Shown piece after piece: positions 2-59,776 of a stretch of DNA of 64,000 nt. The stretch comes from Chloroflexi bacterium OHK40 (GTDB taxonomy: Bacteria; Chloroflexota; Chloroflexia; Chloroflexales; Chloroflexaceae), in assembly GCA_004367505.1 (NCBI GenBank), contig SFCB01000035.1, positions 1-64,000 on the forward strand, in the 5' to 3' direction. The position numbers were made by a program, and so were the translations under genes. The notes under the pieces were generated by a model that did not search any database, had not been told where the DNA came from, and was given only the letters and a program-made list of their open reading frames with translations. Position 1 is the stretch's first letter, and each line of letters begins with the position of its first letter.

Positions 2-1528
2 AGCGCTCCCGCCGCGCCGGCACCCACGGCCGCGCCTGCGGCAGCCACGGTCAAACGCGGCGGCATCCTGCGCGTCGGCATCCAGGTGCCCGCCGTCGAC
101 CACCCCGCCCGCTTCTCGTGGGTCTTCGACTCCAACGAGTTCCGCCAGGTCTACGAGTACCTCACCGAGACGGGCGCCGACAATATTACCCGGCCCTACT
201 TGCTGGAGAGCTGGGAGGTCAACGACACCCTCGACGTCTGGACACTCAAGCTCCGCCAGGGCATCACCTGGTCCAACGGCGACACCTTCACCTCCGAGGA
301 CGTGCTCTTCAACTTCAGAGAGTGGCTCAACCCCGATACCCAGTCGTCCATCCTCGGCCTCTGGGAGGGCTTCCTCACGATCGAAAATGTCAAGGCCCTC
401 GATGACTATACCGTGCAGCTGATGCTCGACGCTCCCAAGCTCGATGTGCCCGAGACCCTCTTCCACTACCCCGCCCAGATCATGCACCGCAGCTTCAACG
501 GCGACCTGACGACGCTGACCAACCCGGGCACCGGCCCGATGAAGCTCGATGAGTTCATCGTCGGTGAGCGGGTGAAGGTCTCGCGGCGCGATGGCTACTG
601 GCAGAATGGGGTGGACGGCCAGCCCCTGCCGTATCTGGACGGGATCGAGTATATCGACCTCGGCAACGACCAGACGGCCTACGTGGCCGCGTTGCAGGCG
701 GGCCAGATCGATACCATCTACGACCCGACGGTCGATACCTTCCTCGCCCTGCGCAACGATGACAGCCTGGTGGTCGAGCCGATCGCGACCTCGCAGGTGC
801 GCGTGCTACGCATGCGCGTAGACCTGGAGCCCTGGACCGATGTGCGGGTGCGCAACGCGCTCAAGAAGGTGCAGAACCGCCAGCGCATCCTCGATCAGGC
901 CTACTTCGGCCAGGGTGAGCTCGGCCACGACTTCCACGTCTCGCCGGTACACCCCGAGTACGCCCCGATGGACGCCCCCGCCTACGACCCGGAGGGCGCC
1001 AAAGCCCTGCTGACCGAGGCCGGCGTAACCCAACCCCTCGATGTGGCGATCTCCGTGGGCACCGGCTGGACCGATATCGTGGCCTATATCGAGACCCTCG
1101 CCGAGGACGCGAAGGCCGGCGGCTTCAACATTACCCTTGACACCATGCCGAACGCCTCCTACTGGGAGAAGTGGACGGAGACGCCCGTGGGGGTTACGCC
1201 CTGGACGCACCGGCCCCTGGCGGTGATGGTGCTCCCGCTGGCCTACATCGCCGATAAGGACGGGAACCCGGTACCCTGGAACGAGAGCCGCTGGGTGGAC
1301 CCCGAGTTCGACACGCTGCTGAAGCAGGCCCAGGGGACCCTCGACATCGAGGCGCGGCGGGCGATCATGAAGGACCTGCAGCGGATCCAGCAGGAGCGCG
1401 GGTCGATCGCGATCGCCTGGTGGCAGAGCGTCTGGAATATCTACCACCCCAGGTTCCAGAACCTCTACGCGCACCCTACCCACTACCAGATCTGGCGTGA
1501 GGTGTGGCTCGACCCCGATAAGGCCTGA
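2..1528 (+). CDS. ABC transporter substrate-binding protein, family 5 (5' truncated)
   Basis: This is the C-terminal 508 residues of an extracytoplasmic solute-binding protein of the oligopeptide/nickel/sugar class (SBP_bac_5). The frame is open from base 2, so the signal peptide and start lie outside the window. The visible N-terminus is an Ala/Pro linker followed by KRGGILRVG, the usual junction after a lipoprotein tether, then the fold (TWSNGDTFTSEDVLFNF, near residue 95, is the family signature region). A GTG at 86 is inside the mature domain and is not the start. Its permeases and ATPases would be expected outside the left edge. The ligand is unknown. Family assignment is firm; the substrate cannot be read from the sequence. 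Confidence 0.9.
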   Translation, partial: SAPAAPAPTAAPAAATVKRGGILRVGIQVPAVDHPARFSWVFDSNEFRQVYEYLTETGADNITRPYLLESWEVNDTLDVWTLKLRQGITWSNGDTFTSEDVLFNFREWLNPDTQSSILGLWEGFLTIENVKALDDYTVQLMLDAPKLDVPETLFHYPAQIMHRSFNGDLTTLTNPGTGPMKLDEFIVGERVKVSRRDGYWQNGVDGQPLPYLDGIEYIDLGNDQTAYVAALQAGQIDTIYDPTVDTFLALRNDDSLVVEPIATSQVRVLRMRVDLEPWTDVRVRNALKKVQNRQRILDQAYFGQGELGHDFHVSPVHPEYAPMDAPAYDPEGAKALLTEAGVTQPLDVAISVGTGWTDIVAYIETLAEDAKAGGFNITLDTMPNASYWEKWTETPVGVTPWTHRPLAVMVLPLAYIADKDGNPVPWNESRWVDPEFDTLLKQAQGTLDIEARRAIMKDLQRIQQERGSIAIAWWQSVWNIYHPRFQNLYAHPTHYQIWREVWLDPDKA

Positions 1529-25614: not shown

Positions 25615-25690
25615 CCCGTGGCGCTCAAGCGCGCGGCAATGGCGCGGCGCCGCCCGCCTGCGCGGCAATGGCGCGGCGCCGCCCGCCTGC
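25615..25690 (+). repeat. Dispersed repeat family B, copy 1, with 29-bp tandem duplication
   Basis: Two exact tandem copies of a 29-base unit (25633-25661 and 25662-25690) that begins GCGGCAATGGCGCGG. The left flank (CGTGGCGCTCAAGCGCG) matches the segment at 56788-56850, so this is a second dispersed repeat family. It lies in the 375-base gap 25479-25853 between divergent genes. Confidence 0.75.
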
Positions 25691-25808
25691 GCGGGCTCTC
25701 GTGGTTGTCAGTGCCAACCGTCGCCCGGCGCGCATATCTGGGGGGCGCATGCCCCGCTCCCATCCTCCCTCCTCCCTCCCCCTCCCTCTCGGTGGCGGCG
25801 CGCCGAAG

Positions 25809-25817
25809 TGGTATACT
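25809..25817 (+). promoter_or_regulatory. Extended -10 promoter of M20 gene
   Basis: TGGTATACT, 37 bases before the start codon at 25854; no clear -35. Likely drives the four-gene run to 31322. Confidence 0.55.
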
Positions 25818-25853
25818 GTGCCATCGTCCCGCCGCCCGATCGGAGGAGCCCCG

Positions 25854-26942
25854 ATGAGTCGTGACCTGCGCGACGAGCTTGTCGCGCTGACGTGTGACAT
25901 GGTGCGCATCGAGTCGATTGCCGACCGGCCAGATCAGCTCGATGCGGCGATCAGCTACGTTGCCGCCTACCTGGCCGACATCCCCGGCCTCACGATCGAG
26001 CACAGCTTGGCCAACGGCAAGCCAGCCCTGGTCGTCACCATGCGCCCCACCCGCGCGCCAGCCCTGATGATCAACGGCCACCTGGATGTAGTCGTCGGCC
26101 GGCCCGAGCAGTTCGAGCCTACCCTGCGCGAGGGGCGGATCTACGGGCGCGGCGCCCAGGATATGAAGGGCAGCTGCGCGGTGATGCTCCGCCTGATCCG
26201 CGATCTCGCCGCCCTGCCCGAGCGCCCCGATGTCGGCTTTCAGTTCGTCACTGATGAGGAGATCGGCGGCGCCGAGGGCACGGGACGGCTGCTCCGCGAG
26301 GGTTGGCGCTGCGGCTTTATGCTCTGCCTTGAGCCGACCGACCTGGGCATCCTCTTCGAGCACAAGGGCGGCATGTGGGTTGAGTTGCGGCTCCCCGGCC
26401 GCCCGGCCCACGGCTCGCGCCCCTGGGAGGGCCACAACCCGATCGAGAACTTGGCCACCGGCCTCGCCGCCATCCGGCGCCGCTTTCCGCAGCCCACCGG
26501 CCCCAACGAGTGGCGCACGACCGTCACCCCCACCAGGATGATCGCCGGTGAGGGCGGCTCGCGAAACCAGGTACCCGCCTCGGCCCTCGTCACCTTCGAC
26601 ATCCGCTGGACGAGCGAGACGAGCCCGGACGCCATCCAGGCAATCCTCACCGAGTGTTTTCCCGGCGCTGAGATCGTGGTGAGCGCCGCAGGCCCGGGCC
26701 TCTACACCGACCCGGAACACCCGGAAGTCTGCCGCGTAGCCGAGATTCTGGAGCGCCGGAGCGGGCGCAGCCCGCGCTTCTACCGTGAGCATTTCGCCAC
26801 CGACGCCCGCTACTACACCAGCGCCGGCATTCCGGCCATCTGCGTAGGTCCGGTGGGCGCGGGGCTCCACTCCGATGAGGAATGGGTCAGCGTGGATAGC
26901 CTGGTCGATCTGTACGCCGTGCTCTGGGAGTATGTTACCTGA
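25854..26942 (+). CDS. M20 family metallopeptidase (ArgE/DapE-like)
   Basis: 362-residue zinc hydrolase. Motifs in order: NGHLDVV (metal His, catalytic Asp), GRGAQDMKGS (bridging Asp), TDEEIGG (Glu pair), a Glu in CLEPTDLG, the dimerisation domain with RPAHGSRPWEG, and GAGLHSDEEW with the last metal His. ATG 25854 is preceded by GGAGGAG. It starts a tight plus-strand run (6-base gaps) with a tRNA methyltransferase and dipeptide-type permeases, so it may process imported acyl-amino acids or dipeptides. It is only distantly similar to the other M20 protein at 20.7 kb. Confidence 0.9.
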   Translation: MSRDLRDELVALTCDMVRIESIADRPDQLDAAISYVAAYLADIPGLTIEHSLANGKPALVVTMRPTRAPALMINGHLDVVVGRPEQFEPTLREGRIYGRGAQDMKGSCAVMLRLIRDLAALPERPDVGFQFVTDEEIGGAEGTGRLLREGWRCGFMLCLEPTDLGILFEHKGGMWVELRLPGRPAHGSRPWEGHNPIENLATGLAAIRRRFPQPTGPNEWRTTVTPTRMIAGEGGSRNQVPASALVTFDIRWTSETSPDAIQAILTECFPGAEIVVSAAGPGLYTDPEHPEVCRVAEILERRSGRSPRFYREHFATDARYYTSAGIPAICVGPVGAGLHSDEEWVSVDSLVDLYAVLWEYVT

Positions 26943-26948
26943 ACGCCC

Positions 26949-28037
26949 ATGCTCTACGCGCTGCAAACCCTTCCCGGCCTTGGTACTCTGGCATGGCGCG
27001 AGGCCGAAACGGCTCTTGCCGCCGGCACGTCGGCTCGTGGCCCGAAGCTCGTGGGCATCAAGGCGGTGCCCGGACGCAACGACATGGTGCTCCTGGCCCA
27101 CGATAGCGGCCCCCGGCCCCTGCTACGGCTGCGGGCCAGCGAGGATGTCTTCGCGGTGGCGGCGCGTGGCTTCCGTGTAGCTCCCGACGAACGGGGCCTG
27201 CGCCAGATCTACGCGGCGGTGCGCCACTCCGAGGACGTGGCTCCGGCCCTCGATGCCTGGCGCCGCGCGGTCGGGAGCCGCCAGCAGGGCGGGAGCTTCC
27301 GTGTCGTGACACGCAGCGTCGGGCGACAGGCGTTTCTGCGCCGCGATGTGGGGCGGGCCGTGGCCGACGCCGTGCGCGATGGATGGCCAGGCAACTGGCG
27401 GCCAGTGGAGGATGACGCCGATCTGGAGATCTGGGCGACCCTCGTGGAGCAAGAGCTCGTATGCGCCGTGCGTCTGTCGGACGCGAGCATGCGCCAGCGG
27501 AGTAAGGCCCGCCACCTGCCCGCGAGCCTGCGTCCCGCCCTCGCCGCCGCTATGGTCGCGCTCACCGAGCCCGCCCCCGACGATGTCTTCCTCGACCCGA
27601 TGGCCGGCGCCGGCACCATCCTGCTGGAGCGAGCAGCCGCCGGCCCCTTCGCCGAGATCCACGGCGGCGACATCAATGGCGAGGCCCTGGCTGCGATGCG
27701 GGAAAACCTGCGCGGCGTGAAGGGCCGGGTCTTCACCAGCCGCTGGGACGCGCGCACGCTGCCCTTCGAGGACAGCAGCATCGATAAAGTGGCCGTTAAC
27801 CTGCCCTTTGGCCGACAGATCGGCGACCAGGCCCAACTGCCCGAGCTCTACCGGGGGGTGCTGGCGGAGATCTCCCGCGTGCTCCGCCCCGGTGGGCGCC
27901 TGGTGGCCCTCACCGGCGATGCCCGGACTCTGGAGACGGCCCGCCAGAGCACCGCTCGCGCGCTGCGGCCAGGCACGCGCCACCGTGTGATCGTGCTTGG
28001 CCAGCCAGCGATGATCTGTGAGTATACGCGCCAGTAG
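26949..28037 (+). CDS. Trm14/TrmN-like RNA (guanine-N2) methyltransferase
   Basis: 362 residues. A THUMP-like N-terminal half (about 1-160) precedes a class I SAM methyltransferase of the UPF0020 family: DPMAGAGTILLERA (SAM motif I, about 219-232), GGDINGEAL (acidic loop) and the catalytic NLPFG tetrapeptide-type motif (N-x-P-F/Y, about 285). This matches enzymes that make N2-methylguanosine at tRNA position 6, with RlmL-like 23S enzymes as the alternative. It begins 6 bases after the M20 stop and ends 6 bases before the permease gene. Confidence 0.87.
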   Translation: MLYALQTLPGLGTLAWREAETALAAGTSARGPKLVGIKAVPGRNDMVLLAHDSGPRPLLRLRASEDVFAVAARGFRVAPDERGLRQIYAAVRHSEDVAPALDAWRRAVGSRQQGGSFRVVTRSVGRQAFLRRDVGRAVADAVRDGWPGNWRPVEDDADLEIWATLVEQELVCAVRLSDASMRQRSKARHLPASLRPALAAAMVALTEPAPDDVFLDPMAGAGTILLERAAAGPFAEIHGGDINGEALAAMRENLRGVKGRVFTSRWDARTLPFEDSSIDKVAVNLPFGRQIGDQAQLPELYRGVLAEISRVLRPGGRLVALTGDARTLETARQSTARALRPGTRHRVIVLGQPAMICEYTRQ

Positions 28038-28043
28038 ACGCCT

Positions 28044-28988
28044 ATGATCCGCTACGCGCTCCGCTCCCTGGCCCTGCTGCCACCCGCGCTGCTGCTGGCC
28101 CATTTTTTCGGCTTTGCCTTTGGGCACCTGGTGGCGCCGCTGCACGCCGCCCGCAACCCTCTCTGGGTCGGTGTCGTGAGCCGTGAGCCACTCCTGCCGA
28201 GCTACCTGGAATACCTCGCCGCGACCCTGCGCTCCGAACCCGTTCCGCTGCCGGGTAGTACGGCTAGCGAAGGTCTGGCCGAGGCGCTCGGGCGCGCGGC
28301 CCTGAATAGCCTGGGCCTGCTCACGATCGCCACGGGGCTCAGCGTCGCGGCTGGCATCACCCTCGGGCTGCTGGCCGTGCGCCGCGATCCGCCACACGTG
28401 GCTACGTGGCTCACAGCTATCGCCACCATCGGGCTCGCTGTGCCAACCTTCTTCGCTGGCGTGATCGGCGTCTTCGTGGTGGTCGTGGTGCTGATCTACG
28501 CACCGGGCCGCACGCTCATCCTGCCATTGGAAGGCTATGGGTGGGACGCGCATCTCGTGCTGCCGGTAGTCGCACTCATGCTGCGGCCCACCGCCCAGAT
28601 CGCGCAGGTGACGGCGGGGATGCTGGTCGCCGAGCTCGGCAAGCAGTATGTGACAACGGCCCGAAGCCTTGGCGTGCCCGAGCCGCGCATCGCCCGGCGC
28701 CACGTGCTACGCAACGCCATGCCAGCGGTGGTGAGCACGATCGCCGGCTCGCTCCGGCTCACCGCAGGTGAGTTGATCATCGTTGAGACGCTCTTCTACT
28801 GGCCGGGCCTCGGGCGGCTGATGGCCCAGGCCCTGCTTCCCGCGAACAGTTCGACGCTCCCTGAGACGCCGCTCTTCCTCAGCCCGCCCGTCATCGGCGG
28901 CGCCCTTCTGCTCTTTGCCGCCCTCTTCTTGCTCGGCAATACGGCCGCTGGCCTGCTTGTGCGCGCCCTGGATCCGAGGGTACGGTAA
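28044..28988 (+). CDS. Dipeptide/oligopeptide ABC transporter permease, DppB type
   Basis: 314-residue inner-membrane permease of the BPD superfamily with about six helices. The cytoplasmic EAA loop that contacts the ATPase is TARSLGVPEPRIARRHVLRNAMPAVV (about 205-230); the conserved FYWPGLGRL signature of DppB follows near 250. The N-terminal periplasmic loop after TM1 is normal for the subfamily. No ATPase or binding protein gene is adjacent; the binding protein at the left edge is 26 kb away. It is followed after 102 bases by its DppC-type partner, which is unusual. Confidence 0.9.
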   Translation: MIRYALRSLALLPPALLLAHFFGFAFGHLVAPLHAARNPLWVGVVSREPLLPSYLEYLAATLRSEPVPLPGSTASEGLAEALGRAALNSLGLLTIATGLSVAAGITLGLLAVRRDPPHVATWLTAIATIGLAVPTFFAGVIGVFVVVVVLIYAPGRTLILPLEGYGWDAHLVLPVVALMLRPTAQIAQVTAGMLVAELGKQYVTTARSLGVPEPRIARRHVLRNAMPAVVSTIAGSLRLTAGELIIVETLFYWPGLGRLMAQALLPANSSTLPETPLFLSPPVIGGALLLFAALFLLGNTAAGLLVRALDPRVR

Positions 28989-29090: not shown

Positions 29091-31322
29091 ATGACACTCC
29101 CTCCAGACCATCAGGCCGCCCCGAGGCCGGAACGAGCACGGCTCTGGCGCAGCAACCCGCCCCTCGCCGCCGGCGGGGCGATCGTGGCGCTGCTGATCGT
29201 CGTCGCGATCGCCGGCCCGCTCGTGGCCCCTCACGGCCCCCTGGAGCGAACGCTGGTAGCCGAGATCGGCGGGCGCACGCGGGGCGTGCCCTTCCCGCCC
29301 TTCCAGAGCTGGGAGTTTCCCCTCGGCTCCGACCGCTTCGGCCGCGATCTGCTCAGCCGCCTGCTCTGGGCGGTGCGCCCCACCCTGCTGCTGGTGACGA
29401 TCGTCGCGCTGCTGCGCCTGGCCCTCGGCCTGCTGATCGGCACCGTGGCCGGCTCGTCGCGCCTTCCCGGCCGGGCCCTCAGCGCGCTCACCGACGCGGC
29501 TCTGGCCGTGCCTGTGCTGGTGGTGGCCCTGGCGGCGATCACTGCCGTGGGGATCGAACGGGGGCTGGTAGCCTTCATCGTCGGGATGTGCCTCACCGGA
29601 TGGGCCGAGACGGCCCAGATCGTGCGGGCCCAGACTCAACTCGTGGCCGCGCGCCCCTTCGTGCAGGCGGCCCACGCCCTCGGCGCCAACGGCCCCCAGA
29701 TCCTGATCCGCCATATCGGCCGCCACCTGGCGCCGCTGCTCGGCACACTGCTCGCCTTCGAGATCAGCGCTGGCCTGCTGCTCGCGGGCTCGCTGGGCTT
29801 CCTCGGCTACTTCATCGGTGGCGGGGTCTGGATCATCACCGACGGGATGGCGATCCCCCAGGCTGAGCGTGTGGCGGGCCTGCCGGAACTCGGCCAATTG
29901 ATCGGCTCCGCCGAGGTGCGGATCTCGAGCCGCCCGCCGTGGGAGATGATCTTCCCCGGCCTGCTGATCGTCGCGGCCATCCTTGGTTTTGCACTCCTCG
30001 GCGAGGGGCTGCGCCGCTACACGACCATGGCGCCGCCACGGCCCTCACGTCTCACGTCGGCCGTCGCGGCCATCGAGGAGGCTACCGTGGTCCGGGCCGG
30101 CGCCTGGGACGGCCTGACGGCCCGCACCGGCTCAGCCATCATCGTCGCCCTGGTCGGGGCCGCCGCACTCCTCTGGTGGCCGTATCGCTCCAGCAGCGAG
30201 CGCGAGAGCCCGCAGCCCGCCACCGCCTTCGCCACCCCTAACGGCTGGTCGGCGGAGCGGGGCGATCCCTACGGCACCCTGCGGGCGCCCGTGCCACCCT
30301 CGGCGCCGGCGCTCCGCTGGCAGTTCGCCGACCCGTCTGGCCTGGCGGGCGGGCCCGCCATCGCCCCCGACGGCACCGTCTACGTCGGGGGCATCAGCGG
30401 ACGGCTCCACGCGCTCGCCCCCGACGGATCGACGCGCTGGAGCGCCCCCATCCAGGCCGAGCCGGTGGGCGCGCCCGCACTCGCCCCCGATGGCACTATC
30501 TACATGGCTGACCGGCGGGGTGGCCTGAGCGCCTTCACGCCTGCCGGAGAGCCACGCTGGCGCTTTCAGAGCAGCTACCGTCACGAAGCCACCTCCGGCC
30601 CGATCGTCGGTCCCGATGGCACGATCTACTACGCGCTGATCGACGCGGTGCAGGCGGTCTCTCCCACTGGCGAGGGCCGCTGGGTAGGGCGCGACCCCGA
30701 GTTGCCCTACCTGGAGGTGTCGCCCCGGCTCAGCCCCGATGGGGCCATGGTCTTCCTCAAGGGCAGCGCCTTCAGCACCGAGGATGGGAGCCAGCTTCCG
30801 CTGCCGATCGTTCCAGACGAGCCGGCCTTCGCCGAACCGGTGCTGCTCGTGGGTGCCGATGGGCGCACCTACTACAGCAGCGAGCATCGTCTGGTGCCCT
30901 GGCGGCGCGTGGATGCCGGGGTTGCCGTTCAGCAGGCACTGGGCTGGCCAGCGCGGAACACCTTCTCCATGCCCTCCGATGTCGGTGTCACGCGCGCAGG
31001 CACGGCGTGGATGCTCTACTCGACCGAGTTCGCCGACACGCGGGTCGTCTGGATCGGCGGCGATGGCCAGCAGATCGGTGAGTTCTTCGCCCCGATGCGG
31101 GCGAGCCGAGCGATCGCCGTGGCCGATGACGGCACGCTGCAGGTATGTGGGGCCGCTCGCAGTCGGGGCCTCAGCTGCGCCGCCTTCAGCCCGGCTGCCG
31201 GTGAGGAGCCGCTCTGGGAGGTAGCTATCGGCGCGCCAGGGGCGCTGGCCCGTGGCGGCGCCATCGTGGACGGCCGGACCTACCTCGTCACCGACGATGG
31301 GCACCTCTACGCGCTCGAGTAG
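29091..31322 (+). CDS. DppC-type ABC permease fused to a PQQ-like beta-propeller
   Basis: 743 residues; ordinary DppC proteins have about 300. Residues 1-305 form a DppC/OppC permease: first helix near 25-47, the SDRFGRDLLSRLLW motif (about 84) and an EAA-like loop AAHALGANGPQILIRHIGRH. After a short cytoplasmic stretch an extra helix (about 348-364, SAIIVALVGAAALLWWP) would put the last 375 residues outside the cell. This part has repeated propeller blades of the PQQ type, such as PAIAPDGTVYVGG, PALAPDGTIYMAD and PIVGPDGTIYYAL, each followed by a W-containing strand. The frame runs through the junction without a stop or compositional break. Possibly a built-in receptor or binding domain; function inferred only. 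Confidence 0.85.
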   Translation: MTLPPDHQAAPRPERARLWRSNPPLAAGGAIVALLIVVAIAGPLVAPHGPLERTLVAEIGGRTRGVPFPPFQSWEFPLGSDRFGRDLLSRLLWAVRPTLLLVTIVALLRLALGLLIGTVAGSSRLPGRALSALTDAALAVPVLVVALAAITAVGIERGLVAFIVGMCLTGWAETAQIVRAQTQLVAARPFVQAAHALGANGPQILIRHIGRHLAPLLGTLLAFEISAGLLLAGSLGFLGYFIGGGVWIITDGMAIPQAERVAGLPELGQLIGSAEVRISSRPPWEMIFPGLLIVAAILGFALLGEGLRRYTTMAPPRPSRLTSAVAAIEEATVVRAGAWDGLTARTGSAIIVALVGAAALLWWPYRSSSERESPQPATAFATPNGWSAERGDPYGTLRAPVPPSAPALRWQFADPSGLAGGPAIAPDGTVYVGGISGRLHALAPDGSTRWSAPIQAEPVGAPALAPDGTIYMADRRGGLSAFTPAGEPRWRFQSSYRHEATSGPIVGPDGTIYYALIDAVQAVSPTGEGRWVGRDPELPYLEVSPRLSPDGAMVFLKGSAFSTEDGSQLPLPIVPDEPAFAEPVLLVGADGRTYYSSEHRLVPWRRVDAGVAVQQALGWPARNTFSMPSDVGVTRAGTAWMLYSTEFADTRVVWIGGDGQQIGEFFAPMRASRAIAVADDGTLQVCGAARSRGLSCAAFSPAAGEEPLWEVAIGAPGALARGGAIVDGRTYLVTDDGHLYALE

Positions 31323-33372: not shown

Positions 33373-34782
33373 TTATGGTGCAGCCGGGAGCCAGAGCACC
33401 GGCGAGCCAGAGTCGACGCTCCCAGCCAGGCGCGCTTCCGGGTCGCCGCCGGGCCGCCAGAGCCAGAGCTCGCCGGGGCCAGGGGCGGGGAACACGGGCT
33501 CCTGATCGGATAAGCCGGGGCGCCAACCCGTAGGGAGCAGCACCACGAGCGCGGCGCCATCGGGGGCCCAGGCGGCCGCAGTGGCTCGGGGGAGCCGGGC
33601 CACCTCGACGGCGCCAAGCTGTAGCGTGGCGCTCGGCAGTACGACCTCTTCCGTCTCGCCGAGTTGCAGCACCGTCAGCCGCCAGATGTCGTAGCCTTCG
33701 AAGCCACGGGCGTCGCTGAAGTTGTGCTCGACCACCGCCAGGCGGCGCCCGTCGGGGGCGTAGAGGGGCGGCAGCATCCAGCCCGCGCCGAGACCCACGG
33801 GGGCGCCGTTGCGCTGGAAGGAGCTTCCGACCTCCGTGAGGTTGATGTCCACCAGGGCCTGATAGCCCAGGAAGCGCTGGTAGGCGATCTGCCCGCCGTC
33901 TGGAGCCCACGCCGGTCCGTAGACAAGCTGGCCCTGTTCGGGCGTGGAACCATCGGCCTGGGCGACATCCCAGCCATTCTCGCCCTGACGGTTGACCATA
34001 CGGATAGTGTTCTCGGCGCCGGGGAAGGACAACGCCTCAGGGCTGCCAATGGGCGCCGCCGCGAAGACGATCCGGCGACCGTCAGGCCCAAAGGCCGGGT
34101 CGCAACCCGCGCCGAGCGGGCGCTCGAGTGCCGGGGCCGCCGCCGGGCCGAGGTCGAGGATGCGCACCTCGGCCTCGCTGCACCAGCGGCTCCACGACTC
34201 CCAGGTAGGCGGGGCGGTGGGCACGGTGGGCGCAGCAGTGTAGACCAGGCTCTGGCCGTCAGGCGCCCAACTCGGGCCACTCTCGACGCGGTCGTTGCTG
34301 GTGAGCTGCCAGAGCTCGCCGGTGGCACGCCGCAGCGCCCAGAGCTCGGCGGCCAGATCCGCGCCGCGCACCAGCGCCAGGAGGCGCCCGTCGGAGGTAG
34401 CGGCGAAATCTCGCACCTCTGTGGCGAGCACCCGTTCGCCGCCCGTATCGACGGCCAGGGCCACCAGATCACCGCCACGCAGGAAGAGGATCTCCTCGGC
34501 CAGGGCGGGCGCGGGAGTCTGGGAGGGGGCAACCGTGGGAGCACTGGTTGGCGCGCTGGTGGCCGTGGATGGGGGGGCACTGGTTGGGCCAGGCGCGGGA
34601 GCCGAGGGCGCGGCGGCAGGCGGCGCGCTCGTGGGCGCAGGCGCACTCGTCGGGCTTACAGCTGCCGGGATCGGCGAGGCCGGAGTGGTGGGTGCGACCG
34701 TCGCCGGGCGTTGGGCGCACGCAGCCAGGGCAAGCACAACGGCCAGGAAGAGGGGCATACGGCGCAGCGTTAGCGCAAGCAC
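33373..34782 (-). CDS. TolB-like beta-propeller lipoprotein with Ala/Pro/Thr/Ser linker
   Basis: 469 residues. Signal peptide with lipobox LALAAC (Cys about 24), then an 80-residue low-complexity linker of Ala, Pro, Thr and Ser, then WD40/TolB-like blades containing SWAPDGQSLVY, AFGPDGRRIVF, AWAPDGGQIAY, LYAPDGRRLAV and AWAPDGAALVV (five or six repeats of the x-APDG-x type). GTG 34782 is chosen because it adds the two Arg needed in a signal peptide n-region; ATG 34758 would leave none. Surface-anchored protein of unknown role. A second such lipoprotein is at 50.7 kb. Confidence 0.78.
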   Translation of the reverse strand: MLALTLRRMPLFLAVVLALAACAQRPATVAPTTPASPIPAAVSPTSAPAPTSAPPAAAPSAPAPGPTSAPPSTATSAPTSAPTVAPSQTPAPALAEEILFLRGGDLVALAVDTGGERVLATEVRDFAATSDGRLLALVRGADLAAELWALRRATGELWQLTSNDRVESGPSWAPDGQSLVYTAAPTVPTAPPTWESWSRWCSEAEVRILDLGPAAAPALERPLGAGCDPAFGPDGRRIVFAAAPIGSPEALSFPGAENTIRMVNRQGENGWDVAQADGSTPEQGQLVYGPAWAPDGGQIAYQRFLGYQALVDINLTEVGSSFQRNGAPVGLGAGWMLPPLYAPDGRRLAVVEHNFSDARGFEGYDIWRLTVLQLGETEEVVLPSATLQLGAVEVARLPRATAAAWAPDGAALVVLLPTGWRPGLSDQEPVFPAPGPGELWLWRPGGDPEARLAGSVDSGSPVLWLPAAP

Positions 34783-34902
34783 CGGAAACCAGGAACCGGG
34801 GAAACACAAGCGGCGGACGTTCTGACGCGCTTCAGCCCTTCGCAGCTGGCGCAACCGTTCCGAGCTATGCACTGGACGGGGCATGGCGGCCTCCCGGCAG
34901 GA

Positions 34903-34938
34903 TGATCCATGGAGCACAGAACCTCACTCCATGGATCA
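34903..34938. terminator. Inverted repeat between PrsA-like and TolB-like genes
   Basis: Perfect 12-bp inverted repeat (TGATCCATGGAG / CTCCATGGATCA) with a 12-base loop, 120 bases after the foldase stop on the minus strand. It may end that transcript. No T tract, so a protein-binding site is an alternative. Confidence 0.5.
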
Positions 34939-50710: not shown

Positions 50711-51736
50711 TTACGGCGCCCACGAGAGACCTGAGTCGCCGTCGAGACCGAGGCCAGTCGTCAGGCGCTTCGGCGATCCGGCCTGGATCTCCCCACCCGT
50801 GCCGAAGCGCAGCGGCGCCACCCAGAGATCAAAGCCGGCCTCACCGGGAGCCACAGCGAGAAACGCGATCATCGCGCCGTCCGGCGAGAAGGCTGGCGCG
50901 CGCGCGGTACCCTGGCTGGTGAGGCGCAGCGGTGCTCCACCGCCACTCGCCGGCAACACGAACAGGTCAGTTCGCTCACCATCGCGAGCGGCGAAGGCCA
51001 GCCAGCGCCCATCGGGTGAAAAGGCCGGGTCGTAGCTGGGCACCGGTGCACCCGGGAAAGGCTCCGCGCCCGCGCCGCCGAGGTCCAGCCGGTAGAGCTG
51101 CTGCGCCCCATCCGGGCCGGTGCCGGCCCGCGTAAAGACCAGGCTGCGCCCATCCGGCGCGAAGGCGCTCCGCCCACAGTGGGCCGTCTCATCGGCGTAG
51201 AGCGGGAGCGGCTCGCCGGGCCCCGCCGGCAGCAGTGTCAGGCCGAGATTGTAATCGGCCGGCGGGTCACCAGCGGGCGGCTGCGGCTGCGTGGCAACCA
51301 CCACACTCGCGCCCTCGGGCGTCCAGGCGGGATAGAAAGCCCAGCGGCTCGCGTAGACCCGCGCGAGGCTATTGGGGGGCTCGTCGGTGCCGTTGAAGGT
51401 AAGCTGGGCCAGCGGGCCACCAGCGGCGTCGGCAAGCAGAATATCGCTGAAGCTGTTCGAGCGAGCAACATAGGCGATCCGGTCGCCCTCAGGCGACCAG
51501 GATGGCTGGGCCGCGCCGCCGTCGCCCAGGAGTGGACGGGCCTCGCGGCCCTCCCAATGCCAGATCACGCCTGCACGCACGAAGAGCAGGCGGCCGGGAA
51601 GATTCTCGCCGCGCACGGCATCGCTCTCCGCAGCGGGGGGCGCGGCCTGGTCCGGGCGCACCCGCTCACTACCGCAGCCGGCCAGGATCACCAGCAGCAG
51701 CGCCAAGATCATCCTCGCGTGTGCTTGCATCACCAT
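50711..51736 (-). CDS. TolB-like beta-propeller lipoprotein
   Basis: 341 residues. Signal peptide with lipobox LVILAGC (Cys about 21), a short linker, then about five TolB/WD40-like blades with repeated PAWTPEGASVVV, AFAPDGRSLVF, AFSPDGRWLAF and AFSPDGAMIAF. Surface-anchored, role unknown. It is the third gene of a minus-strand run with a large membrane protein and a diacylglycerol-kinase-like gene, 49 bases downstream of the former. Similar in design to the 33.4-kb lipoprotein but without its long Ala/Pro/Thr/Ser linker. The ATG at 51736 has only a weak ribosome site; an in-frame ATG two codons later is possible. Confidence 0.82.
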   Translation of the reverse strand: MVMQAHARMILALLLVILAGCGSERVRPDQAAPPAAESDAVRGENLPGRLLFVRAGVIWHWEGREARPLLGDGGAAQPSWSPEGDRIAYVARSNSFSDILLADAAGGPLAQLTFNGTDEPPNSLARVYASRWAFYPAWTPEGASVVVATQPQPPAGDPPADYNLGLTLLPAGPGEPLPLYADETAHCGRSAFAPDGRSLVFTRAGTGPDGAQQLYRLDLGGAGAEPFPGAPVPSYDPAFSPDGRWLAFAARDGERTDLFVLPASGGGAPLRLTSQGTARAPAFSPDGAMIAFLAVAPGEAGFDLWVAPLRFGTGGEIQAGSPKRLTTGLGLDGDSGLSWAP

Positions 51737-57655: not shown

Positions 57656-59776
57656 TCACGCTTCCGCGCCGGCCCCGGGGGCTGGCGCGAGGGCCACGGC
57701 GAGGACACGGTTGTTGAAGTGGTCGCTGACGAGCAATGCGCCCGCACCGTAGAGGCGGAGGCCGTGGGGCTCGTTGAGGGGTAGCCCGCCGATACGTTCC
57801 CCGGCCCCAATCAGGGTCGTGAGGGGGCCGCCGGGGCGCATACAGCAGACGCGGTTGTTACCCGAGTCGGCGATGTAGATGGCGCCATCCGGGCTCACCT
57901 CCAGCCCCCAGGGTGTGTCCAGCAGGGCCTGGTGGGCCGGCGCGCCGTCGGGCGAGAAGCCGGGGCGCCCAAGCCCGGCCAGCGTCGTGATCAGGCCGCT
58001 CTGCGCGTCCACCCGCCGGACGACGTGGTGGGCCCGGTCGGTGAAGTAGAGGTTGCCGGAGCGGTCAAAGCGGATCGCCGTGGGGGTGCCGATGCGGGCC
58101 GCCGTCGCGGGGCCGCCGTCGCCGCTATAGCCAGGGAGCCCGGTGCCCACCACAGTGCTGATCAAGCCCGTTTGCCCATCGATGCGCCTGATCCGGCCCA
58201 CGGCGTCGCCCAGGAAGATGTCGTCGCCCGGCCCATGGGCCACGGCCTCGACGTGGACCACACAGGCGCCGAGAGCCGGTCCTCCGTCGCCCTTGTCCCA
58301 CTGGAGGCCCGTCCCAGCCACCGCGCGGATTACCCCCGCCTCGTCGAGCCGGCGTACGTGGCCGTGGCGCGTGTCGGCAATGACCAGCCGCCCCCGCGAG
58401 TCCATCGACACGTCGTGGGGGTTGCCGAGATAGGCTTCGACGGCGGGGCCACCGTCGCCGCCGTAGGCTCGCGCTCCGTTCCCAGCGACGGTGCGGATCG
58501 CCCCGGTGCGCGGGTCGACCGCTCGCACGCGCTGGGACCAGACATCGGCGATGTAGAGTGTGCCATCGGGCCCCACCGCGAGGCCACCGGGGCCGCAGAG
58601 GAACGCCGCCGTGGCCGCGCCCCCGTCGCCCACACCCGTCCCTCCGAGAGCCGTGGTGACGATGCCGGTGCGCCCATCGTAGCGCCGCAAGCGGCCAGAG
58701 CAGTCGCCCCAGAAGACGGTACCGTCGGGGTCGGCCCAGATCCCGGCTTCACAGGAGTTGCAGCGCGTCTCGGCGCCGGGGCGCCCCTCCTCACCGAAGC
58801 CGGGCACGCCGTCACCCACGAGGGTACGCACGATACCGCTGGTCGCCTCTACCTTGCGCACCCGGAAGCCGTACTTCTCGCCGACGTACAGGTTGTCGTG
58901 GGCGTCGAGGCAGATCGCGTCGGGCATGAGGGTTCCGGCCTCCGCAGCCGGCCCGCCATCACCGCTGGAGGAGCGGCGACCGTTGCCGAGCACCGTGGTG
59001 ATCACGCCGGTCCGCATGTCGATCTTGCGCACACGGTCATTGGAGTTGTCGCAGACGTACAGGTCGCCCCGCGAGTCGAAGGCCAGGTGCTCGGGGTGGT
59101 AAAAGCCCGCGTCGAGCGCCGGGCCGCCGTCGCCGTGGTAGCCCATCAGGCCGAGGCCCGGGCCCGCCATGGGCCTGCTGGCGCCGCGCTCCGAGGGGTA
59201 GTGGCGTGCGTCCTGGCCGGCGAACCGCGTGATGATGCCGCTACGCGCGTCCACTCGCCGGATCGTACCCGACCACTCGTCCGAGAGGTAGAGGTTGCCG
59301 GAGCCGTCGACGGCCACCCCGCAAGTGCAGTCGAGCTCGGCTTCGAGGGCGAGGCCGCCGTCACCGCCGCGCCCACTGGCGCCGCTGCCTGCCACGCGGG
59401 TGACGACGCCCGAGCGGTAGTCGATGCGCCGGATCGTCCGGTTGCCCAGGTCGGAGAGATAGAGGTTACCGTGCCGGTCCTGGCAGAGGTCGTGGGGGTG
59501 GAAGAAGCGGGCCTCCAGCGCGGGCCCGCCGTCGCCCCGCCGGCCAGGGACGCCATCGCCCGCGAAGCGATGCAGGAGACCCTCGCGGTCGATGCGCCAG
59601 AGGGTGTGGGCCTGGTAGTCGACCACCACCAGGTCACCGTCGGGCCGGCGCACCACGCCCATGGGCCAGCCCGCGTCGGCGTGACGCGCGGGCACTCCCT
59701 CCCTGTAGGCAGACCCGGCGATGATCGCGCCCCTACGGGGGGCCAGGGCGCCGGCCAGCAGATCGCTCAGCAGCAT
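57656..59776 (-). CDS. NHL-repeat beta-propeller protein
   Basis: 706 residues without a signal peptide or membrane segment, so probably cytoplasmic. At least ten repeats of 50-60 residues, each with a GDGGPA-x-A-like turn and a GNLYxADxxNxRVRRID-like strand (for example HGNLYLSDLGNRTIRRID, RGDLYVCDNSNDRVRKID). This is the NHL/teneurin-type YD architecture, giving one or two propellers. No catalytic residues identified. It begins 3 bases from the BNR stop and shares an operon with DapA-like and ferritin-like genes. Role unknown; a scaffold or ligand-binding platform is possible. Confidence 0.82.
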   Translation of the reverse strand: MLLSDLLAGALAPRRGAIIAGSAYREGVPARHADAGWPMGVVRRPDGDLVVVDYQAHTLWRIDREGLLHRFAGDGVPGRRGDGGPALEARFFHPHDLCQDRHGNLYLSDLGNRTIRRIDYRSGVVTRVAGSGASGRGGDGGLALEAELDCTCGVAVDGSGNLYLSDEWSGTIRRVDARSGIITRFAGQDARHYPSERGASRPMAGPGLGLMGYHGDGGPALDAGFYHPEHLAFDSRGDLYVCDNSNDRVRKIDMRTGVITTVLGNGRRSSSGDGGPAAEAGTLMPDAICLDAHDNLYVGEKYGFRVRKVEATSGIVRTLVGDGVPGFGEEGRPGAETRCNSCEAGIWADPDGTVFWGDCSGRLRRYDGRTGIVTTALGGTGVGDGGAATAAFLCGPGGLAVGPDGTLYIADVWSQRVRAVDPRTGAIRTVAGNGARAYGGDGGPAVEAYLGNPHDVSMDSRGRLVIADTRHGHVRRLDEAGVIRAVAGTGLQWDKGDGGPALGACVVHVEAVAHGPGDDIFLGDAVGRIRRIDGQTGLISTVVGTGLPGYSGDGGPATAARIGTPTAIRFDRSGNLYFTDRAHHVVRRVDAQSGLITTLAGLGRPGFSPDGAPAHQALLDTPWGLEVSPDGAIYIADSGNNRVCCMRPGGPLTTLIGAGERIGGLPLNEPHGLRLYGAGALLVSDHFNNRVLAVALAPAPGAGAEA

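Follow-up and report, generated by a model that had tools for sequence, protein, structure and literature searches.

Within the window, by which we mean the whole 64,000-nucleotide stretch of DNA that was analyzed, a dppB-type gene lies 102 nt upstream of a dppC-type gene that continues in frame into an additional membrane helix and a propeller domain. The features of this pair, all on the forward strand, are as follows.

28044..28988 (+): DppB-type permease, the partner of the fusion (314 aa; BPD_transp_1, E 3.9e-24)
28131..28298 (+): extracytoplasmic TM1-TM2 loop of DppB, from which the scoop (PGDP...LGLDxP) is missing (alignment with E. coli DppB and 20 other DppBs)
28647..28730 (+): EAA loop (coupling helix) of DppB, retained (alignment)
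29091..31322 (+): DppC-type permease fused to TM7 and a propeller (743 aa; translation, Pfam)
29148..30011 (+): DppC permease domain, residues 20-307 (OppC_N and BPD_transp_1)
29658..29741 (+): EAA loop of DppC, residues 190-217, retained (alignment)
30114..30185 (+): extra membrane helix TM7, residues 342-365 (hydropathy)
30186..30245 (+): variable stalk, residues 366-385 (26% amino acid identity to the Oscillochloris homologue)
30246..31319 (+): eight-bladed BamB/PQQ-like propeller, residues 386-743 (PQQ_2, AF2 model, fold matches)
30579..30602 (+): R-x-ATSGP loop in propeller blade 3, residues 497-504 (conserved; candidate functional site)
31146..31178 (+): C686 and C696 in propeller blade 7 (conserved; possible disulfide)

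The reading frame at 29091-31322 (+) is open throughout and encodes 743 amino acids, in agreement with the first-pass annotation, which had described a permease and a propeller joined in one frame. Pfam places OppC_N at residues 20-51, BPD_transp_1 at residues 113-307 (E 3e-11), and a PQQ_2/BamB-type propeller from residue 408 (E 7.5e-13); all Pfam matches in DppB and in the fusion exceed the curated gathering scores. The pair thus carries the permease domains of Dpp/Opp-type systems, OppC_N with BPD_transp_1 in DppC and BPD_transp_1 in DppB. Against the named Dpp, Opp, and Nik NCBIfam equivalogs, every score fell far under its cut-off (115 versus 350 bits). Its permease part is a six-helix unit of the DppC type, and hydropathy locates one helix beyond these (residues 342-365), as had been claimed, ahead of the propeller. 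Because the C-terminus of DppC is cytoplasmic after six helices (PMC12136057), a seventh helix places the propeller outside the cell. Other fusions have a counterpart helix, which in two proteins (L067 and L056) falls below the hydropathy threshold and is visible by eye as a hydrophobic stretch. Relative to the Oscillochloris homologue, identity is 69% in the permease, 54% in the propeller, and 26% in the stalk; the linker, TM7, and stalk diverge (17-38% identity) and keep their length and hydrophobicity. Judged from this alignment, a conserved permease and a conserved propeller joined by a drifting but length-keeping linker, helix, and stalk is the pattern of a tether.

The propeller proper spans approximately 358 residues (386-743). 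The 375 residues originally assigned to it count in the stalk; the domain assignment stands and the length does not. Modeled by itself with AF2, the propeller (pTM 0.70, mean pLDDT 66, with fragment residues 166-246 unreliable) aligns over almost its full length with closed eight-bladed propellers, including Cake8 (Z 26.8) and BamB (Z 24-25). Propellers with PQQ repeats of the BamB/YxaL type, eight-bladed like the one described here, are among the best natural matches by both fold and sequence. BamB differs, however, in being an outer-membrane lipoprotein of the BAM complex, and the propeller reached 33 bits against the BamB equivalog model, under its cut-off of 285. As to whether the domain is a quinoprotein dehydrogenase, its sole match among propeller models is the generic PQQ_2 repeat of Pfam. 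Full-length AF2 models of the fusion (two sequences) had a pLDDT of 47, too poor to place the propeller on the pore. Across the aligned propellers, A500, T501, and G503 are invariant; they belong to the R-x-ATSGP loop, which also occurs in the homologue from G086. The invariance of C686 and C696 would fit an extracytoplasmic disulfide. Three more propeller proteins are encoded in the window (33376-34917, 50714-51736, and 57659-59776; two PD40, one NHL), the first two of them apparently secreted or lipoproteins.

A scan of public genome contigs retrieved a full-length homologue of the fusion from an Oscillochloris MAG (57% identity). Among 82 Chloroflexales genomes, full-length or near full-length fusions are present in the genome of the window, G000, and in G017 (59%), G030, G057, G058, and G059; G073 holds a shortened copy, and in G021 the propeller end alone is visible, at a contig edge. 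The G073 copy (L016) runs, late in the length of the propeller, into unrelated sequence resembling an amidohydrolase/PhnM-type protein, and its contig is possibly chimeric. In 8/8 genomes matched, the propeller is part of a fusion, and neither an unfused propeller of this kind nor the two parts as separate adjacent genes were found in the 82 genomes of the order. When 400 Chloroflexota genomes were searched with the propeller, the matches were G086 and two partial sequences (E 1e-26 to 1e-29). G086 is a closed 4.40 Mb genome from another family; its fusion is 748 aa long (E 3e-198), and the gene overlaps dppB by 4 nt. The propeller fusions form one clade, with support of 98/96 in one tree and 100/94 in a 52-sequence tree. 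The fusion is genuine. The first-pass annotation had preferred this over an assembly join, and the full-length homologues bear it out; the same domain order, sought in other Chloroflexota as it had suggested, is found in Chloroflexales and in the closed genome G086. Missing from that annotation were the DppB partner, the wider permease clade, and the exchange of ectodomains.

The closest relatives of the DppC portion include unfused proteins from other families and proteins with long C-terminal extensions. A tree of 52 DppCs splits at 100/99 support into 31 orphan-type sequences (8 with the propeller, 6 with an M28 domain, 1 with another propeller, and 16 unfused) and 21 others, the latter consisting of ordinary loci from G000, G042, and G086 together with DppC and SapC of E. 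coli. A close grouping of the orphan pairs with SapBC was rejected, given that E. coli SapC falls among the ordinary DppCs.

In the genomes with the fusion, a DppB-type gene precedes it wherever the contig reaches that far. In E. coli, the DppB loop from TM1 to alpha3 (approximately residues 32-62) forms a scoop that reaches into the cleft of DppA and closes off the cavity; its deletion impairs both growth on dipeptides and ATPase activity (PMC12136057). The scoop signature was found in 0/29 DppBs of the orphan clade, in contrast with 17/20 comparison DppBs (drawn from G000, G042, and G086) and E. coli DppB. The three comparison proteins lacking the signature have loops that are longer and divergent rather than shorter, whereas the TM1-TM2 loop of the orphan clade is shorter. 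This alignment is the real evidence for scoop loss; the Fisher p of 1.8e-10 is secondary and nominal, as the rows are related and the regular expression was written after viewing the sequences. Unfused members of the orphan clade also lack the scoop, so its loss preceded, or was independent of, the gain of an ectodomain, and the ectodomain is not a necessary replacement for it. The scoop is likewise missing from E. coli SapB, yet in some species SapBC works together with SapA binding proteins; a missing scoop is therefore no proof against use of a binding protein (SBP).

At the position of the propeller, five orphan-type DppCs (L064, L066, L067, L069, and L070) bear an M28 peptidase domain recognized by Pfam (E 3e-38 to 3e-14), and a sixth (L088) has what appears by eye to be a very degenerate M28 domain. 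Inspected by eye in the alignment and translations, L066 and L069 retain intact metal-binding residues, whereas L064, L067, L070, and L088 have lost some or all of them. In another relative (P0002/L021), an extra helix of its own is followed by a propeller-like domain that is unrelated and has a sub-threshold Pfam propeller match. The exchange of domains at one C-terminal position implies repeated attachment, and ectodomains joined the orphan permeases at least twice and probably on three occasions. That the M28 domain is kept where catalysis is lost suggests that binding, and not cleavage alone, is the retained function; taken together, the M28 ectodomains suggest a link to peptides and a role for the ectodomain other than catalysis. 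Transferrin receptor 1 offers an analogue, an M28 fold on a membrane anchor whose dead active site serves as a receptor. Such M28-fold ectodomains match the M28-bearing relatives in sequence, with the difference that transferrin receptor 1 is eukaryotic, single-pass, and has no permease attached.

Further M28 genes lie next to DppC::M28 fusions. In G256, a 1599-aa, apparently secreted M28 protein (L072:1979-6778) is encoded beside DppC::M28, and a second M28 match adjoins DppC::M28 in G307 (L092). A neighbor gene of that kind may have been the origin of the M28 ectodomain. In G160, DppB, DppC, and a degenerate M28 domain are apparently encoded in one 1212-aa frame (L074:7006-10644). Standalone M28 relatives in G191, G228, and G338 had no adjacent dppBC in the loci read.

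The first-pass annotation had noted the lack of an ATPase or binding-protein gene next to the fusion, and we likewise found none adjoining it in the window. The operon of the fusion contains no DppD or DppF ATPase gene; such ATPases are encoded elsewhere in the genomes, with 4-20 matches to Dpp-type ATPases in every genome examined. Neighboring ATPases were sought by Walker A and signature motifs, and neighbors were read by eye; no Dpp-type ATPase or SBP was found beside any orphan-clade pair examined, several of the contigs being short. The strongest cases of gene isolation are the complete genomes G042 and G086, where the orphan pairs have neither an oligo_HPY ATPase nor an SBP_bac_5 gene in their vicinity and where the oligo_HPY ATPases form four and five pairs, respectively, each at the locus of another DppBC. 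A dedicated ATPase pair elsewhere in the genome was considered, and none could be singled out, as the Dpp-type ATPases of G042 and G086 sit with other permease pairs. The EAA loops are recognizable in both orphan subunits, with the conserved A and G and mostly the H kept, which makes a shared ATPase plausible. Exceptional constraint on the EAA loop within the propeller clade was rejected, its conservation being average (52nd percentile of the protein).

Other gene arrangements provide context. Four ordinary dppBC loci in G000 (L108-L111) keep the scoop and have no ATPase in the stretch read, a pattern that hints at ATPases common to several systems in that genome. In G086, DppC and a DppD-type ATPase are fused in a single 641-aa frame (L101:3071-4996). 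An incomplete SBP_bac_5 gene lies at the edge of the window (2-1525), 26.5 kb from dppB and with no sign of serving it. Immediately before dppB are genes for an M20 peptidase and a THUMP/UPF0020 methyltransferase (25668-28037), separated by gaps of approximately 6 nt, and dppBC may be co-transcribed with them. The genes neighboring the fusion differ among related genomes.

The reading that we prefer, with a probability of roughly 0.45, is that this DppBC is independent of a free SBP, uses an ATPase in trans, and carries its ectodomain as a tethered cap or receptor. DppB and DppC::propeller would together form the pore, as the membrane portion of a type I ABC transporter of the Dpp type, and a DppD/F-type ATPase common to other Dpp systems would bind the retained EAA loops. 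Held on TM7, the propeller would sit at the outer mouth of the pore, where it would probably capture or guide a peptide or peptide-like substrate in place of the free SBP. A built-in receptor, a sensor, and an envelope anchor had been proposed in the first-pass annotation; all three are compatible with the data, with the receptor or cap favored by the loss of the DppB scoop and by the M28 and dead-M28 domains found at the same place. Paired six-helix permeases, OppC_N, BPD_transp_1, and EAA loops are held in common with DppBC/OppBC, as in E. coli DppABCDF (PMC12136057). The orphan pairs differ in lacking the DppB scoop and adjacent ATPase and SBP genes and in forming a separate clade, and the window DppC adds a seventh helix and a propeller. 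A covalently tethered ectodomain is also a trait of the importers GlnPQ and OpuA, in which the attached extracytoplasmic receptor has the Venus-flytrap SBP fold (PMC8025302, PMC11065425), whereas here a helix added at the C-terminus carries a propeller or an M28 domain.

The main rival reverses the direction of transport. An exporter resembling SapBC would expel a small cationic or peptide-like compound without needing an SBP, and the ectodomain would work at the exit by binding, trimming, or handing on the product. SapBC(DF) is indeed a DppBC-type pair that lacks the scoop, as E. coli SapB illustrates, and is at least partly SBP-independent: putrescine export by SapBCDF has been reported for both E. 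coli and P. mirabilis (PMC12772348), and H. ducreyi SapBC is partly active without SapA (PMC9629497). That no SBP gene adjoins any orphan pair examined also agrees with such an exporter. However, the position of SapC among ordinary DppCs, outside the orphan clade, marks the likeness as convergent; moreover, sap operons have their own ATPases, unlike the orphan pairs, and SapBC has no ectodomain. We regard an exporter as rather unlikely; the reported export by SapBCDF and the SapA-independent activity of SapBC offer a precedent, by convergence, for SBP-independent use of such a permease.

Slightly less probable is a DppBC that has ceased to transport, with a propeller that serves to sense envelope material or to tether it. 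Receptors are known in which a transporter fold has been reused, and such a role would accord with the lack of an own ATPase or SBP in the contexts examined and with the ectodomain being the part exchanged. Against it, the EAA loops and conserved glycines and prolines are kept in both DppB and DppC, the two subunits stay together, and there is no cytoplasmic signaling domain. We think it improbable that the pair is an ordinary Dpp-type importer, served in trans by a distant SBP and ATPases, with a propeller that is only a wall or peptidoglycan anchor. The many Dpp-type ATPases of the genome, the SBP_bac_5 gene at the window edge, and the scoop-bearing dppBC loci of G000 with no ATPase in the stretch read would be in keeping with it, but the clade-wide loss of the scoop argues against a normal SBP cycle. 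An assembly or annotation artefact, or a chance fusion, is conceivable for a draft assembly of 301 contigs and can be dismissed in practice: the fusion recurs across several genera and in the closed 4.4 Mb genome of G086, where dppB overlaps the fusion gene, and homology runs in frame along the whole protein.

Type I ABC importers are taught as requiring a Venus-flytrap binding protein and a dedicated ATPase pair. In the orphan clade, the docking arm, binding protein, and neighboring motor genes are gone, and other ectodomains have been acquired at one position. No description of a DppC-propeller or DppC-M28 fusion was found in open-access full text, a body of literature outside which most subscription journals lie. 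As far as this search extends, a propeller or M28 ectodomain on a scoop-less Dpp-type permease could represent an undescribed mode of delivery for type I ABC systems, a suggestion that we advance tentatively. With similar reserve, the preferred reading might extend to a Chloroflexota-wide class of DppBC that dropped the SBP cycle, carries exchangeable C-terminal ectodomain caps, and relies on shared ATPases; the wide searches behind this scored few candidates per genome, and the sampling was nearly all Chloroflexota. With this clade it becomes possible to test directly whether a permease of the peptide type can function with a tethered cap other than an SBP or can instead export without an SBP, and which ATPase an orphan DppBC uses.
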